From: Acidipropionibacterium sp.
GTDB taxonomy: Bacteria; Actinomycetota; Actinomycetes; Propionibacteriales; Propionibacteriaceae
Direction: 5' to 3'
DNA: 64,000 nucleotides
Assembly: GCA_022647765.1 (NCBI GenBank)
Contig: JALCLH010000006.1
Location: 1-64,000 of the forward strand
Part shown: positions 2,986 through 61,169 of the stretch, one piece after another
How the letters are laid out: each line of letters opens with the position of its first letter
How positions within the stretch are numbered: position 1 is the first letter of the stretch
Program-made: the position numbers and the translations under genes
Notes under the pieces: generated by a model
Databases searched by the model: none
The model's input: only the letters and a program-made list of their open reading frames with translations
What the model was told of the DNA's origin: nothing

Positions 2986-3066
2986 ATGGTCCCGATCACT
3001 CCCGAAAGGCCGGAAACCGGCGCTGATGATGAAGAAACCTGGCCTATTGGGAGTGATCGGGACCAT
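2986..3066. repeat. 81-bp palindromic element, copy 2
   Basis: Arms ATGGTCCCGATCACTCCCGA and TGGGAGTGATCGGGACCAT with one mismatch; the centre differs strongly from the other copies although the total length is still 81 bp. It lies between the DUF559-like gene and the nrdD leader. Confidence 0.9.
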
Positions 3067-3154
3067 CCATCGGCCACCCCAAGATCCGACCCCCTCCGCC
3101 GCAAACCCAGAGTGATGGTGTATACCTTCATCTTGTGTTGGTCCTCATCGGATT

Positions 3155-3168
3155 CACTACATGTAGTG
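3155..3168. promoter_or_regulatory. NrdR-box-like palindrome
   Basis: CACTACATGTAGTG is a perfect 14-bp palindrome close to the NrdR box pattern (ACAC-WATATW-GTGT). It lies immediately upstream of the cobalamin riboswitch that leads into nrdDG. NrdR controls ribonucleotide reductase genes, so the position fits. NrdR boxes usually come in pairs and I see no clear second box. Confidence 0.45.
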
Positions 3169-3189
3169 GCTGATGGGGGCAGGGAGGGC

Positions 3190-3505
3190 TCGTAGCCATC
3201 GGCTGCGAGATCTCTCAAGAGGGAAGCCAGTGAGAATCTGGCGCTGCCCCGCAGCGGTATCAGGAAACGAAAGACGGCATCGGAGTCCACACCGGCCGGC
3301 GGTCCACCCGGACCGTCCGGCAGATGCGCCCCGAAGCACTGTGCCCCCCGGCATGGGAAGCGCCGTCCAGAGAGTGCGCCGATGGGAATGGCCGCAACAG
3401 GCCGGACCCGTCGATGCACTCCGGTAGGAACCCGGCTCGAGCGAACGCTCGACAAGGCCGGAATGCCCTGGAGCCCGAAGACCTGCCAGCACCCGGGCCC
3501 GACCC
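3190..3505 (+). ncRNA. Cobalamin (AdoCbl) riboswitch upstream of nrdDG
   Basis: The B12-box core AGCCAGTGAGAATCTGGCGC followed by TGCCCCGCAGCGGT is present at about 3218-3255, and the closing P1-side motif GCCCGAAGACCTGCCAGC at about 3475-3495. The aptamer is long (about 300 nt), as often in Actinobacteria. It ends about 80 bp before nrdD. By family knowledge, bound adenosylcobalamin switches the gene off. That makes sense where a B12-dependent class II reductase can take over, although none is visible here. Confidence 0.88.
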
Positions 3506-3585
3506 GCCCGGACGCACGGCCCTGTGGGAGGGTCAAGTCGCAAGGCCTGCCCTCCGCGCCGCCCAGACGCTGCGAGGAGAAGCGC

Positions 3586-5991
3586 ATGACCACCACCACC
3601 GAATTCGGCCGCTCCGGCATCGACCGTCCCGCCACCAGCCTTCCCGCCCTGACGGGCACCGCCGTCCCTACCCGGGTCCGCAAGCGCGACGGCAGGACCG
3701 TCCCATTCGCCGCCGACCGGATCACCCGCGCGGTGACAAGGGCTTTCACCGCCACCGGCGTCCAGAACCCGGAGCCGCTCGCCCTCCAGGTCACCCTCGG
3801 CGTCCTGGCCCGGCTCTCGGCCCAGCAGACAGAGCAGACCGAAGAGCCCGGCGTCGAGGAGATTCAGGACATCGTCGAGAAGGTCCTGATGTCCCAGGGG
3901 CACGACGAAACCGCGAAGGCCTACATCCTGTACCGGCAGCGCCGCACGATGCGCCGCGAGGAGCAGTCCTCGCTGATGACCGCGCTGCGCGACATCACCT
4001 TCGCCCCGGCCGAGGACTGCGACGCCAAGCGGGAGAACGCCAACATCGACGCTCACTCGGCGATGGGCTCGATGCTGCGATTCGGCTCGGAGTCGGCCAA
4101 GCAGTTCAACATGCTCCAGGTGCTCGAGCCCGCGCACGCCGCCGCCCACCGCGACGGCGATATCCACATCCACGACCTCGACTTCCTCACCCTCACCACC
4201 ACCTGCTGCCAGATCGACCTCAGCCGGCTCTTCGAGCACGGCTTCTCCACCGGCCACGGGATCCTTCGGGCCCCGCAGAGCATCGGCTCCTACGCCGCCC
4301 TGGCGTGCATCGCCATCCAGTCGAACCAGAACGACCAGCACGGCGGCCAGGCGGTGCCGAACTTCGACCGGGACATGGCTCCCGGCGTCGCCAAGACGAT
4401 GCGGAGCCGGGCCCGCTCAGGTCTGGTTCAGGCCTGGCTGCTGATGGGTGGGGACCCGGAGCGGGCAGCAGAGGCCGCCAGGACAGCCTCCGACTGGGTC
4501 CTGGCGCCGGACGCCGACGCCCGCCAGGAAGAGCGGAACAGCGTCCGCACCCTCTTCGCACCCCTCGGACTCGGCGAACTCGCCTGCGACCGGATCGACG
4601 AGCGGGTCCGCCGGCAGGCCGTCGCCGAGACCGAGCGGCTCACCTACCAGGCGATGGAGGCGTTCATCGCCAACCTCAACACGATGAACTCCCGGGCCGG
4701 TGCCCAGACGCCGTTCTCCTCGGTCAACTACGGCACCGACACCAGCGCCGAGGCGCGACTGGTGGTGCGCAGCCTGCTGGAGTGCACCGAGGCCGGGCTG
4801 GGCGGCGGGGAGACGGCGATCTTCCCGATCCAGATCTTCCGCGTCGCCGAGGGGGTCAACTACAACCCCGGCGACCCGAACTACGACCTCTTCCAGCTGG
4901 CCTGCCGCACCAGCGCCAAGCGGCTCTTCCCGAACTTCTCCTTCCAGGACGCCCCCTTCAACGCCGCCTACCACCGGCCCGGCCACCCCGAGACCGAGAT
5001 CGCCTACATGGGCTGCCGGACCCGCGTGATGGCCAACGTCCACGACCCGTCCCGGTCGATCACCTACGGTCGGGGGAACCTGTCCTTCACCAGCATCAAC
5101 CTGCCGCGGCTGGCCATCCAGGCCGATCACGACGTCGACGCCTTCTTCACCAGCATGGACGCCATGACCGACCTGGTGATCGACCAGCTGCTCGACCGGC
5201 TCAAGATCCAGTCGCAGAAGAAGGTGCGCAACTTCCCCTTCCTGATGGGCCAGGGGGTGTGGATCGACTCCGAGGGGCTGGACGCCGGCGACACGGTCGG
5301 CGAGATTCTCAAGCACGGCACCCTGGCGGTCGGCTTCATCGGGCTGGCCGAGACCCTGGTGGCGCTGATCGGGAGCCACCACGGGCAGTCCGACGAGGCG
5401 CTGGACCTGGGCATGAGGATCGTCGGGAGGCTGCGCGAGCGCACCGACCGGGCCGGCGAGGAGACCGGGCTGAACTTCTCCACCTTCGCCACCCCGGCCG
5501 AGGGGCTGTCGGGCCGGTTCGTGCGCATCGACCGGGAGCGGTTCGGCGCGATCCCCGGCGTCACCGACCGCGAGTACTACACCAACAGCTTCCACATCCC
5601 GGTGTACTTCCCGATATCGGCGGCCGAGAAGATCAGCCGGGAGGCGCCCTTCCACGCGCTCACCAACGGCGGGCACATCTCCTACGTGGAGATGGACGGC
5701 GATCCCAGCCGCAACGTCGAGGCCTTCGAGAGGATCGTGCGCCATATGCACGACTGCGGGATCGGCTACGGGTCGATCAACCACCCGGTCGACCGCGATC
5801 CGGTCTGCGGCTACAACGGCATCATCGACGACGTCTGCCCCGGCTGCGGACGCCGCGAGGATCTGGCTGCGGGCGGCGACGGCATCGGTTTCGAGCGGAT
5901 CCGGCGGATTACCGGCTACCTGGTCGGCACCCTGGACCGGTTCAACGACGCCAAGCGCGCCGAGGTGGCCGACCGCGTCAAGCACGCATGA
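3586..5991 (+). CDS. nrdD: Anaerobic (class III) ribonucleoside-triphosphate reductase NrdD
   Basis: An oxygen-sensitive glycyl-radical enzyme that reduces NTPs to dNTPs for DNA synthesis under anaerobiosis. The chosen start is ATG 3586, behind GAGGAGA; the longer track ORF runs into the riboswitch. The 801-residue product has an N-terminal ATP-cone (RVRKRDGRTVPFAADRI), the catalytic barrel, a C-terminal four-cysteine zinc region (PVCGYNG...CPGCG) and the glycyl-radical loop RRITGYLVG about 30 residues from the end. NrdG follows 9 bp downstream. Expression is likely shut down by cobalamin through the leader and possibly by NrdR. Confidence 0.95.
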   Translation: MTTTTEFGRSGIDRPATSLPALTGTAVPTRVRKRDGRTVPFAADRITRAVTRAFTATGVQNPEPLALQVTLGVLARLSAQQTEQTEEPGVEEIQDIVEKVLMSQGHDETAKAYILYRQRRTMRREEQSSLMTALRDITFAPAEDCDAKRENANIDAHSAMGSMLRFGSESAKQFNMLQVLEPAHAAAHRDGDIHIHDLDFLTLTTTCCQIDLSRLFEHGFSTGHGILRAPQSIGSYAALACIAIQSNQNDQHGGQAVPNFDRDMAPGVAKTMRSRARSGLVQAWLLMGGDPERAAEAARTASDWVLAPDADARQEERNSVRTLFAPLGLGELACDRIDERVRRQAVAETERLTYQAMEAFIANLNTMNSRAGAQTPFSSVNYGTDTSAEARLVVRSLLECTEAGLGGGETAIFPIQIFRVAEGVNYNPGDPNYDLFQLACRTSAKRLFPNFSFQDAPFNAAYHRPGHPETEIAYMGCRTRVMANVHDPSRSITYGRGNLSFTSINLPRLAIQADHDVDAFFTSMDAMTDLVIDQLLDRLKIQSQKKVRNFPFLMGQGVWIDSEGLDAGDTVGEILKHGTLAVGFIGLAETLVALIGSHHGQSDEALDLGMRIVGRLRERTDRAGEETGLNFSTFATPAEGLSGRFVRIDRERFGAIPGVTDREYYTNSFHIPVYFPISAAEKISREAPFHALTNGGHISYVEMDGDPSRNVEAFERIVRHMHDCGIGYGSINHPVDRDPVCGYNGIIDDVCPGCGRREDLAAGGDGIGFERIRRITGYLVGTLDRFNDAKRAEVADRVKHA

Positions 5992-8287: not shown

Positions 8288-8334
8288 CGCCGTCACCTCC
8301 CGGGCGGTTGCCGGACGCCGATGGCGCCGGGATA

Positions 8335-8490
8335 TCCTGAAGGCGTCCGGCGACAGGGAATCCGGTGAGAATCCGGGACTGACGCGCAGCGGTGAGGTGG
8401 ACAGCGGGCGACACGCCACTGGGGAGACTCCCCCGGGAAGGCGCTCGACTGGGCGAAACCGAGTCCGAAGACCTGCCGGACACTCTGTCC
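8335..8490 (+). ncRNA. Cobalamin riboswitch (second) before a small RHH gene
   Basis: The core AATCCGGTGAGAATCCGGGA followed by CTGACGCGCAGCGGTGA is at about 8360-8396, and the closing CCGAGTCCGAAGACCTGCCGG at 8458-8478. The aptamer is compact (about 150 nt) and complete. The next gene downstream is a ribbon-helix-helix protein, not a known B12 gene, so what it controls is unclear. Confidence 0.88.
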
Positions 8491-8682
8491 GCGGCCGCGC
8501 GAATCGGCCTCAGCGAAGATGAACGAGGTTGGTCAATGACGGGTCTGTCGTCAACCGCCGGTGCCCTTTTCGGCGTTCGGCACTTCCATTCTGGTTCTGT
8601 GCCTTCAGGGCCGTCGCTCACCCTCGTGGTCGCGTGCAGAGGACTGCCATTCATCGTCCGCACCACCGAGAAGGGAAATGCC

Positions 8683-8919
8683 ATGGCAGGCACGCGACCT
8701 ATGATCGACAACGACATTCTCACCACTTTGAGACGCCGGGGGAGGCCGACCTTGGGGCATTCCAGCCCGCAGGGGGCCGGTCGTTCACCGGTCCGGCAGG
8801 CGCGCCTCCCGGAGGATCTCAGCCAGCGCCTCGACGACTACGTGCTGAGGCACGGAGGAAACTCGTCGAAGGTGATCCGCGACGCCGTTGCGGAGTATCT
8901 GGACCGGGTTGGCGCATAG
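8683..8919 (+). CDS. Ribbon-helix-helix (CopG/Arc-type) small protein
   Basis: A 78-residue protein starting at ATG 8683 behind GAGAAGGGA. The C-terminal half (VRQARLPEDLSQRLDDYVLR then SSKVIRDAVAEYLDRV) shows the beta-strand plus two-helix pattern of ribbon-helix-helix DNA-binding proteins such as antitoxins or CopG repressors. An alternative in-frame ATG at 8536, right after the riboswitch, would add 49 residues. No toxin partner is visible: the following 250 bp hold only a hairpin. Its position behind a cobalamin riboswitch suggests a cobalamin-responsive regulator, which is inference. Confidence 0.65.
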   Translation: MAGTRPMIDNDILTTLRRRGRPTLGHSSPQGAGRSPVRQARLPEDLSQRLDDYVLRHGGNSSKVIRDAVAEYLDRVGA

Positions 8920-9675: not shown

Positions 9676-9756
9676 ATGGTCCCGATCGCTCCCGCAAGGT
9701 CATGTTTCTGCATCGCCGGCGCCGTTTCGTGGCCTTTCGGGAGTGATCGGGACCAT
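9676..9756. repeat. 81-bp palindromic element, copy 3
   Basis: Arms ATGGTCCCGATCGCTCCCG and CGGGAGTGATCGGGACCAT with one mismatch; 81 bp. It lies between the end of the metal ABC operon and the small membrane protein gene. Confidence 0.9.
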
Positions 9757-11786: not shown

Positions 11787-11867
11787 AGGGGCCCGATCAC
11801 TCCCGATAGGCCGAGTTTCTGCATCGCCGGCGCCGTTTCACGGGGTATCGGGAGTGATCGGGACCAT
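11787..11867. repeat. 81-bp palindromic element, copy 4
   Basis: The left arm is degenerate at its outer end (GGGGCCCGATCACTCCCGAT), the right arm is intact (ATCGGGAGTGATCGGGACCAT). It lies inside the metal operon between the secreted protein and permease genes. The interior closely matches copy 5, 1.6 kb away. Confidence 0.88.
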
Positions 11868-13422: not shown

Positions 13423-13503
13423 ATGGTCCCGATCACTCCCGATAGGCCGAGTTTCTGCATTGCCGGTGCAGTTTCACGGGGTATCGGGAGTGATCGGGAC
13501 CAT
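13423..13503. repeat. 81-bp palindromic element, copy 5
   Basis: Perfect 20-nt arms; the inner stem around GTTTCTGCAT/GCAGTTTC is well preserved. It lies between the lipoprotein gene end and the Zur-like box of the next gene. Confidence 0.9.
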
Positions 13504-28225: not shown

Positions 28226-29386
28226 TCACTTCTTGAACTTCGCCAGCCCGTCGCTCACCGTCTGCGCGCCGTCCGTCAGCTGGGCGCCCGGCGTGGTGGC
28301 CGCGAAGGGCAGGGTGATGAAGCTCTTGTTCTTGACCGCCCGCAGATTCTTCAGCACCGGGTCGGACTCCAGGTACTTGATCTTGTGGGCGGCGGTGTCC
28401 CAGGAGGCGTCGGCCAGCACGATGACGTCGGGGTCGGCGGAGACGACCTTCTCCCAGGATCCGTCGAACCAGTTGGCCTTCTGGCCGGCGAAGACGTTGG
28501 TGGCACCGGTCGCGGACAGGATCAGTTGTGGGCCGCCGGTGCCGCCGCCCAGGAAGGGGGTCTTGTCGCCGGAGTCGTACCAGACGACCTTGAGGCCCTT
28601 GCCGTTCTGGGCCTTCTGAACGCCCGCCAGCTCGGTCTTCTGCTGGTCGATCACCGGGGTAGCGGCCTCGGGCTTGCCGAGGATGGTGGCCACATCGGTG
28701 AGCTCGGAGTAGACGTTGGCCCAGGTGGCGTCGGCGGACTTGGCGTCCTTGGGGCAGCCGAAGGGGCTGATGTAGGTGCCGATTCCCTGCTTGGCCAGTT
28801 CGTCGCGGGTGCCCACACCCTTGTCGGTGAAGGCGCTGGAGTACGAGGCGAAGGCGAAATCCGGCTTGGCGGCCAGGAAGGTCTCCTTGTCGGGGTACTG
28901 CTTGGAGAGGACCTTTACCGAGTCGTAGGCCGACTGCCATTTGGCCGGGATGGCGCCGTCCAGGTAGGCGGTGCCCACCAGGCTCTTCTGCAGCCCGAGC
29001 GCCAGCACATCCTCGGTGGCTCCCTGGTTGAGAGTGACGCCCCTTGTGGCGGGCTTGTCGAGGGTGATCTTGCGGCCGCAGTTGGTGAGCGAGATGGTGC
29101 TCGAGGCCGCGGATCCTGCCGCTGTGGCCGAGCCCGATGCCGATCCCGATGTGGAGGAGCTGGGGGCTCCGGCGCAGCCGGACAGCCCGATCGCCAGTGC
29201 GGAGACGGCGGCTGTGGCCGCCATCGAAATGCGGGCGCGGCGGGAGGCTGTGGTGCGCGGTGCTGGGGTGGGTGGTGTTGCGGTGCCGGATGTTCCCGCG
29301 CTGGCGGCCGTTCCGCGCGGGATCGGGGTACCGGGCGTCGAGGTGCGGGGCGCGCCGATCCGGCGAAGTGGGGATGAGAAGGGCAT
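28226..29386 (-). CDS. Corrinoid-binding lipoprotein (BtuF-type)
   Basis: A 386-residue binding lipoprotein; ATG 29386 is preferred (AGAAAGAG before it) over the track start at 29431. A long cytoplasmic N-terminal leader of about 50 residues precedes the signal helix ISMAATAAVSALAIGLSGC with lipobox LSGC. The mature part begins with an SGSASGSAT linker. The core reads ISLTNCGRKITLDKPATRGVTLNQGATEDVLALGL and PDVIVLADASWD. It is the first gene after a cobalamin riboswitch, with permease, ATPase and ferredoxin-like genes downstream. Confidence 0.87.
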   Translation of the reverse strand: MPFSSPLRRIGAPRTSTPGTPIPRGTAASAGTSGTATPPTPAPRTTASRRARISMAATAAVSALAIGLSGCAGAPSSSTSGSASGSATAAGSAASSTISLTNCGRKITLDKPATRGVTLNQGATEDVLALGLQKSLVGTAYLDGAIPAKWQSAYDSVKVLSKQYPDKETFLAAKPDFAFASYSSAFTDKGVGTRDELAKQGIGTYISPFGCPKDAKSADATWANVYSELTDVATILGKPEAATPVIDQQKTELAGVQKAQNGKGLKVVWYDSGDKTPFLGGGTGGPQLILSATGATNVFAGQKANWFDGSWEKVVSADPDVIVLADASWDTAAHKIKYLESDPVLKNLRAVKNKSFITLPFAATTPGAQLTDGAQTVSDGLAKFKK

Positions 29387-29424
29387 GACGAAGCTCTTTC
29401 TGTATGACGGCTTGCGCGGCCGTG

Positions 29425-29600
29425 CGACCAACAGTTCTCGTCAGGTGGTCTTCGGACTCGGCCTCATCCCCGCACCGGAACCTTCCCGGCCGGATGCTCG
29501 CACACCCCGCCAGTGGTCACCCGTCTCCGGGCCGGTGCAGGTCAGCCATACCGCTGCGCGTCAGCTCCGGCATCTCACCGGATTCCCTTGACCTGACGGG
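29425..29600 (-). ncRNA. Cobalamin riboswitch of the corrinoid transporter operon
   Basis: On the minus strand the core AATCCGGTGAGATGCCGGAG and ACGCGCAGCGGTATGGC run from about 29585 to 29545, and the closing GAGTCCGAAGACCACCTGAC lies at about 29465-29440. It ends about 40 bp upstream of the btuF-type start, which fits control of translation. It is the standard regulatory element for B12 uptake operons. Confidence 0.88.
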
Positions 29601-29667
29601 GTCAGCCTAGGGCAGAGGCCCTCCCGACCGGCCGCCGGGGTGCGCCGGACGGGAGGAGGAGAGGGCC

Positions 29668-29748
29668 ATGGTCCCGATCACTCCCGATACGCCGTGTTCC
29701 TGCACCTTTCGTGCAGAAACCCCGCCTGTCGGGAGTGATCGGGACCAT
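29668..29748. repeat. 81-bp palindromic element, copy 6
   Basis: Arms ATGGTCCCGATCACTCCCGA and TCGGGAGTGATCGGGACCAT are perfect; inner stem CTGCAC/GTGCAG. It lies between the end of the zinc-type transporter operon and the corrinoid riboswitch. Confidence 0.9.
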
Positions 29749-35301: not shown

Positions 35302-36079
35302 TCACTTGATCGCGGCGAGCATGTTCTGCATCTGGGTGATCTGGGCCGTCTGGGAGCTGATGATGTCGGCGGCCAGGCTGAGCGCCTGAGGGTTCTTGCC
35401 CTTGACGATCTCGTCCTTCGACATGTCGACGGCGGCTTGGTGGTGGACGATCATGAGCTGCAGGTAGAGCTTGTCGAAGGCGGTTCCGTGGGCCGCCTTG
35501 AGCTTGGCCATGTCGGCGTCGGTCATGCCCGGCATGTCATTGCCGCGGATGTCGATGCTGGCCGACGGCGCCGCCGAGCTGGGCATGTGCATTCCGTGCA
35601 TATCCATGCCGGACGCCGAGCCGGACATGTCCATGCCGGGCATGGAGGAGGAGCTCGGCATATCCATGCCGGACATCGAGGACGTGGGCATCGCCGAGGC
35701 GGGCATGCTCATTCCCGGCATCGCGGAGCTCGAGGAGCCGGCCATCGAGGCGTTCCACGTCTTCAGCCAGCTCTGCATCTCCTGGATCTCGGGCTCCTGC
35801 GCCTCCTGGATCTGGGCGGCCAGGGTCTTGACGGCGTCACTGCTGGCGCGGTCGGGGGCCAGGGCCGACATCTCGATGGCACCCTGATGGTGGATGCTCA
35901 TCATCTGGGCGAAGGACATGTCCGCCTCGTTGTGGACGGTCGACACTGTGACCGCACTGGTGGACGCCGTGGGGGTGGGCGAGGACGAGGGGTTGGTGGC
36001 GGCCAGACAGCTGGTGACGCCGATGACGACCACCACGGCGATGGCCGAGCCGGCCTGCGATGCGCGATTTGTTATTCAT
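35302..36079 (-). CDS. Met/His-rich DUF305 lipoprotein (start region frameshifted)
   Basis: A DUF305 protein of about 258 residues. The two four-helix halves carry the family motifs MMSIHHQGAIEMSALA and LMIVHHQAAVDMSKDEI. Between them is a 70-residue Met/Ser/His-rich segment (MPGMSMPASAMPTSSMSGMD; MDMHGMHMP), a likely soft-metal (Cu-type) binding tract. The best start is ATG 36079, which has GGAGGT 10 nt upstream, giving MNNKSR; one base must be lost near 36060 to enter the signal segment SAIAVVVVIGVTSC with a lipobox-like end. It is the first gene behind a cobalamin riboswitch, followed by the polyferredoxin. Confidence 0.82.
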
Positions 36080-36094
36080 GGGAACACGGACCTC

Positions 36095-36265
36095 CAGACG
36101 GACGCGCTGGAGTCAGATCCGGCACCGGTTCATCCGTCGTGAACTGTGGGAACGCGCCGAGTCAGGCGACCGGACTTCGCCATGAATGGCGTCACCGTTG
36201 CGGGACAGTGCCGGATTCTCACCGGCTTCGCTGAATCTCGATGCGGTCACATGGGTGTGACGTCG
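36095..36265 (-). ncRNA. Cobalamin riboswitch before DUF305/polyferredoxin
   Basis: On the minus strand AAGCCGGTGAGAATCCGGCA followed by CTGTCCCGCAACGGTGACG (36236-36195) is the B12-box core, and GGCGAAGTCCGGTCGCCTGA (about 36178-36158) is the closing side. It ends just before the GGAGGT site of the DUF305 gene. The match is as good as for the classical uptake operon at 29.5 kb, yet the controlled genes are not known B12 genes. Confidence 0.85.
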
Positions 36266-37701: not shown

Positions 37702-37782
37702 ATGGTCCCGATCACTCCCGATACGCCGAGTTTCTGCGTTGGCGATGCCGAAAAGGGGCCTGGCGGGAGTGATCGGGACCAG
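37702..37782. repeat. 81-bp palindromic element, copy 7
   Basis: Left arm ATGGTCCCGATCACTCCCG, right arm CGGGAGTGATCGGGACCA with one terminal mismatch; 81 bp. The interior (TTTCTGCGTTGGCG...AAAAGGGGCCTGG) is almost the same as in copy 10 at 61 kb, although the two are 23 kb apart. Confidence 0.9.
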
Positions 37783-46902: not shown

Positions 46903-47017
46903 ATGGTCCCGATCACTCCCGACACACCGTGAAATCGCACTCGCGATGTAGAAACACGCGCCGTGTTTCTGCACGGCTCCGGACGGATAGCGACCCGGCG
47001 GGAGTGATCGGGACCAT
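46903..47017. repeat. Enlarged palindromic element, copy 8 (115 bp)
   Basis: Arms ATGGTCCCGATCACTCCCGA and GGGAGTGATCGGGACCAT as in other copies, but the centre is 34 bp longer. The extra part makes its own stem, TAGAAACACG/CGTGTTTCT, i.e. an inverted second copy of the core GTTTCTGCA. It lies between the PTS operon and the next operon. Confidence 0.88.
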
Positions 47018-54933: not shown

Positions 54934-55014
54934 ATGGTCCCGATCACTCCCGATCGGCCGTGAAACCGCACTCGTAGTGCAGAAACATGACCTATCGGGA
55001 GTGATCGGGACCAT
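54934..55014. repeat. 81-bp palindromic element, copy 9
   Basis: Arms ATGGTCCCGATCACTCCCGA and TCGGGAGTGATCGGGACCAT perfect. It lies between convergent genes, 10 bp after the dienoyl-CoA-reductase stop. The inner hairpin GCACTCGTAGTGC is precise. Confidence 0.9.
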
Positions 55015-61088: not shown

Positions 61089-61169
61089 ATGGTCCCGATC
61101 ACTCCCGATACGCCGTGATTCTGCGTTGGCGGTGCCGAAAAGGGGCCTGGCGGGAGTGATCGGGACCAT
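61089..61169. repeat. 81-bp palindromic element, copy 10
   Basis: Left arm ATGGTCCCGATCACTCCCG, right arm CGGGAGTGATCGGGACCAT. It lies between convergent genes, 10 bp after the RluA stop. The interior differs from copy 7 at only a few positions. Confidence 0.9.

Follow-up and report, generated by a model that had tools for sequence, protein, structure and literature searches.

In Acidipropionibacterium sp., the class III ribonucleotide reductase (RNR) genes nrdDG very probably encode a backup enzyme under the control of a cobalamin (B12) riboswitch and of NrdR, the two acting in series. Comparison of 11 nrdD leaders from five genera shows that in each of them the putative NrdR operator and the riboswitch share sequence. 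This sharing of bases between boxes and aptamer, seen in every propionibacterial leader examined, is the new detail reported here, and the position of the predicted operator favours series control over the riboswitch bypass proposed in 2013. We give an even chance to a conserved Propionibacteriaceae composite in which one set of bases would have three roles: operator DNA for NrdR, start of the transcript, and first helix and arm of the B12 aptamer. If this holds, a dNTP sensor and a B12 sensor would be physically fused in one promoter-proximal module. The analysis covers a 64-kb stretch of DNA (the window) and the 3.68-Mb assembly that contains it, with a completeness of 86.65% according to the tool used.

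In the proposed circuit, plentiful AdoCbl would fold the leader as the ligand-bound aptamer and turn nrdDG off, and the AdoCbl-dependent NrdJ, which has no riboswitch, would then supply dNTPs. When B12 is short, the switch would open and the B12-free class III enzyme, useful without oxygen, would be made. Independently of B12, NrdR with dATP/ATP would bind the tandem boxes and stop transcription when dNTPs are sufficient; these boxes span the predicted transcript start together with the first ~35 aptamer bases.

The nrdDG genes and their leader

The features of the locus are as follows.

3123-3138 (+): NrdR box 1, TACCTTCATCTTGTGT; weak palindrome whose 3' end is the start of the first aptamer helix
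3123-3128 (+): -10-like TANNNT (TACCTT), its position shared to within 1 base by 10 of 11 leaders
3135-3492 (+): cobalamin riboswitch aptamer, revised full extent, from the RF00174 match, the fold and a closing helix kept in 11 leaders
3154-3169 (+): NrdR box 2, holding the perfect 14-bp palindrome CACTACATGTAGTG at 3155-3168; in a peripheral arm of the aptamer
3493-3585 (+): expression platform and ribosome-binding site, with GTGGGAGGG (3524-3532), CCCTCC (3550-3555) and Shine-Dalgarno GAGGAG (3574-3579); mechanism inferred
3586-5991 (+): nrdD, class III anaerobic ribonucleoside-triphosphate reductase, 801 aa; NF005497 1111.5 bits, TIGR02487 607.6 bits
6001-6579 (+): nrdG, radical-SAM activase with CxxxCxxC as CQLHCPGC; TIGR02491 113.6 bits (E 7.6e-33), slightly below the curated cut-off of 126.1

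The translation of nrdD contains an ATP-cone (PF03477) and the glycyl-radical motif RRITGYL. Together with the NrdD family score and the adjoining NrdG activase (itself below its curated cut-off), these are the features of a class III RNR. The sequence-only reading had described class III nrdDG behind a complete B12 aptamer, and the NrdD and NrdG profile matches, with an RF00174 match in the leader, bear this out.

The Rfam search placed RF00174 at 3184-3314 (+) with 34.6 bits, above the gathering score of 31.5; by Rfam the window holds four cobalamin riboswitches, this copy included. We rejected the Rfam placement as the aptamer boundary: the canonical 3' strand GAAGACCTGCC, the partner of 3135-3142, lies outside it at 3478-3488. 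Both outer strands are missed by this placement because the window copy has large peripheral arms. In the minimum-energy fold of 3133-3494 (z = -5.95), GUGUUGGU (3135-3142) pairs with GCCAGCAC (3485-3492) to form the closing helix. Across the 11 aligned leaders of five genera, the helix is paired in 98.9% of cells, with one pair altered on both sides and four on one side, and its pairing probabilities are near 1 in most leaders. The core motifs AGGGAA, CTGCCCCGCAGCGGTA, GCACTG, TGGGAAGC and GAAGACCTGCC are intact in the window aptamer, and the core columns are invariant in the leader alignment.

The middle of the aptamer (3240-3444) shares 74% identity with the metE riboswitch of the same organism across 206 nt, and the leader of the sole nrdD-bearing congener aligns to the window leader mainly outside this segment. 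Recombination between riboswitches at 3240-3444 is thus a possible reading of the sequence.

Downstream of the aptamer, sub-folds of the single sequence let CCCTCC (3550-3555) pair alternatively with GGGAGGG (3526-3532) or with the GAGGAG region, and a scan of the nrdD leader found no intrinsic terminator on the + strand. Because of these alternative partners and the lack of a + strand terminator, the expression platform is probably translational, blocking initiation rather than causing termination, a guess from single-sequence folds.

Tandem NrdR boxes and the predicted transcript start

Box 1 lies exactly 31 bp upstream of box 2, and the two form the best-scoring NrdR pair in the 64-kb window, using a scoring consensus from the literature, set independently of these leaders. 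The motif CACTANATNTAGTG with up to two mismatches has a chance expectation of 0.20 in the window. Exact CACTANATNTAGTG occurs at three sites in the 3.68-Mb assembly, all of them upstream of RNR operons: nrdD (contig C6), nrdA (C2) and nrdR (C4). The earlier suggestion that the perfect palindrome resembles an NrdR box therefore holds, on the strength of these three sites and of the 31-bp pair.

In the cryo-EM structure of NrdR on DNA, the conserved C and G are separated by 9 bp inside each box and recur after 31 bp in the next box (PMC9110341), and NrdR prefers whole helix turns between boxes (PMC12051234). Here these positions are C3126/G3135 in box 1 and C3157/G3166 in box 2. The ten other nrdD leaders have an NrdR pair at 31 or 32 bp and retain all four conserved C/G positions, a count that is partly by construction because the scoring favoured those positions. 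In each of the 11 leaders, the observed pair score was equalled in 0-2 of 500 dinucleotide shuffles. The same genome encodes nrdR (TIGR00244, 161.7 bits, L023). By sequence, the nrdD leader thus has what an NrdR operator calls for: a box pair about three helix turns apart with the conserved C/G, and nrdR in the genome.

A palindrome that serves as an aptamer hairpin only was considered and rejected, the DNA half-sites being kept although, at three of six positions, 7 of 11 leaders no longer form the RNA pair. Because the RNA hairpin at box 2 is paired in just 66% of cells across the 11 leaders, what is conserved at this site is the DNA operator.

The sequence-only reading had put the palindrome right before the aptamer. 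Instead, the aptamer runs from 3135 to 3492 with the palindrome inside it. The start given at 3155 lies 20 bases downstream of the true aptamer start and 32 bases downstream of the start of the upstream NrdR box. Because the closing helix pairs 3135-3142 with 3485-3492, box 1 overlaps the first helix and box 2 falls within the aptamer, in the arm that separates the first helix from the AGGGAA core. In 10 of 11 leaders the beginning of box 1 is occupied by the TANNNT motif, about six bases ahead of the first helix base. We infer from this arrangement that transcription starts at about G3135, the first base of the closing helix, so that the whole aptamer would be retained. A promoter scan of the + strand of the nrdD leader found no consensus sigma-70 -35/-10 promoter.

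Other RNR operons and distribution of NrdD

The presence of nrdJ in the genome had been named as a check, and a class II NrdJ is encoded (PRK06556/NF005122, 1569.7 bits) on contig C4, beside nrdR (TIGR00244). The nrdR-nrdJ operon carries an NrdR box pair, and the Rfam search found no RF00174 match on its contig. On contig C2, metE, nrdA and nrdB form a run on the minus strand (L022, 2108-8886); metE is preceded by a cobalamin riboswitch, and an NrdR pair lies between metE and nrdA. Gene order and spacing suggest that the three genes are one operon. As the riboswitch precedes metE while the NrdR pair sits between metE and nrdA, nrdAB may be served by two promoters, one under B12 control and one free of it.

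Among 148 sampled genomes of the family, NrdJ scored above the family cut-off in 131, and 11, counting the window's own, had the same type of NrdD (a twelfth match had 33% identity and was excluded). From these counts class II looks standard and class III optional, which fits a class II enzyme as the standard one and a class III enzyme as backup for B12 shortage. In all ten relatives with this NrdD, RF00174 matches the region upstream of nrdD with 63-113 bits (62.8 in L112, 82-113 in the rest).

The nearest named relatives of this NrdD are in Cutibacterium namnetense and Propionimicrobium lymphophilum; the next closest, in a scan of named genomes, are clostridial. A search for this NrdD in 395 genomes of the class, in which few candidates per genome were scored, gave no match at E <= 1e-150 other than the window's own copy. 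Three clostridial leaders (L037, L071 and L092) have a B12 riboswitch before nrdD, and two of them a scored NrdR pair. Horizontal transfer of nrdDG together with its leader is possible.

Other features of the window

A dispersed palindromic repeat of ~77 bp with ends GGGAGTGATCGGGACC is present ten times in the 64 kb, and one copy lies ~60 bp ahead of the nrdD promoter region. The copies are:

1640-1716, 2988-3064, 9678-9754, 11789-11865, 13425-13501
29670-29746, 37704-37780, 46905-47015, 54936-55012, 61091-61167

A strong cobalamin riboswitch (8331-8494, 88.6 bits) is followed by a small ORF (8682-8919) that is ribbon-helix-helix-like and matched no NCBIfam or Pfam model. The cobalamin riboswitch at 29427-29611 (-) precedes a periplasmic binding protein (Peripla_BP_2, 28226-29431 (-)), likely a B12 uptake operon. 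An AdoCbl riboswitch (RF01482, 58.3 bits) at 36123-36258 (-) lies directly before genes for a DUF305/DUF4142 protein and a Fer4_5 protein (35302-36036 (-)), which are not an obvious B12 gene set.

Proposed series control and its alternatives

Control of nrdDG by the two sensors in series is suggested by an NrdR pair with the geometry known from Streptomyces coelicolor, by the RF00174 leaders of the relatives and by a riboswitch-free nrdR-nrdJ. Against it stand the lack of a consensus -35 and the active nrdDG start of Cutibacterium acnes, which lies upstream of the boxes. A promoter at or downstream of the boxes would instead give a transcript without a working aptamer, so that NrdR derepression would remove B12 control. 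Such a bypass was speculated for C. acnes (PMC3848588), the NrdR boxes do overlap the aptamer, and a similar one is plausible here for nrdAB, where the boxes come after the metE riboswitch, between metE and nrdA. For nrdDG we consider it rather unlikely: from the conserved TANNNT, transcription is predicted to begin with the first base of the closing helix and to keep the whole aptamer, which argues against the published guess of a riboswitch-free transcript from the boxes. The overlap of operator and riboswitch in all 11 leaders likewise predicts control in series.

With a Rfam score of only 34.6 bits and unusually long arms, AdoCbl binding by the window aptamer is not certain. A degenerate aptamer that no longer binds B12, leaving nrdDG under NrdR alone, would account for this score, the lowest among the nrdD leaders (82-113 bits elsewhere, 62.8 in L112), and for the large extra arms, and the likeness of ~3240-3444 to the organism's own metE riboswitch may mark a recombinant. 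Yet the core motifs are intact, the arms fold well (z -5.95), and the metE riboswitch has the same arms and presumably works; we hold degeneration to be very unlikely.

Comparison with known systems

The nrdAB operon of Streptomyces coelicolor carries a B12 riboswitch; the enzyme there is class I, whereas here it is class III. As at S. coelicolor nrdAB and nrdRJ, the NrdR boxes of the window are spaced by about three helix turns and share the conserved C/G positions (PMC9110341). Two clostridial nrdD leaders, that of Lutispora thermophila (L092) and L037, are similar in having RF00174 at 113-122 bits and an NrdR pair upstream of nrdD. By eye, their boxes are outside the aptamer, on a clear -35/-10 immediately ahead of it, and the gene follows a hairpin that resembles a terminator.

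A literature search (titles and abstracts, with limited subscription coverage) found nothing on NrdR boxes combined with riboswitches on RNR leaders beyond the C. acnes paper, and a search of the older biochemistry of B12-deficient propionibacteria found nothing useful. B12 control of a class III RNR had been suggested to be new in the sequence-only reading. This did not stand, as such control was described in 2004 (PMC545781) and in 2013 (PMC3848588), and the combined B12 and NrdR arrangement on nrdDG, described in 2013, is not new either. In 2004, Desulfovibrio vulgaris and Desulfuromonas, whose genomes also have nrdJ, were reported to carry B12 elements ahead of class III nrdDG, with the same backup logic; these bacteria are unrelated to the present one, and NrdR boxes are not reported in the part of that account considered here (PMC545781).

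The closest precedent is C. acnes, in which a cobalamin riboswitch was annotated in the 5' UTR of nrdDG together with an nrd-box pair, nrdRJ being without a riboswitch and nrdAB having one; that RNA-seq paper infers the same preference for NrdJ (PMC3848588). The active nrdDG start mapped there lies upstream of the boxes; under the conditions of that study none was seen at the boxes themselves, and a transcript from the nrd-boxes would, in the authors' guess, be without the riboswitch (PMC3848588). In contrast to that guess, the boxes and the -10-like motif are here aligned with the first base of the aptamer. The riboswitch in the nrdAB 5' UTR of C. acnes (PMC3848588) here heads metE-nrdA-nrdB instead. 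The arrangement is real and sensible, and its novelty is limited to a modest anatomical refinement: B12-backup regulation of class III RNR is extended to Acidipropionibacterium sp., and the known picture of B12 and RNR choice is unchanged.
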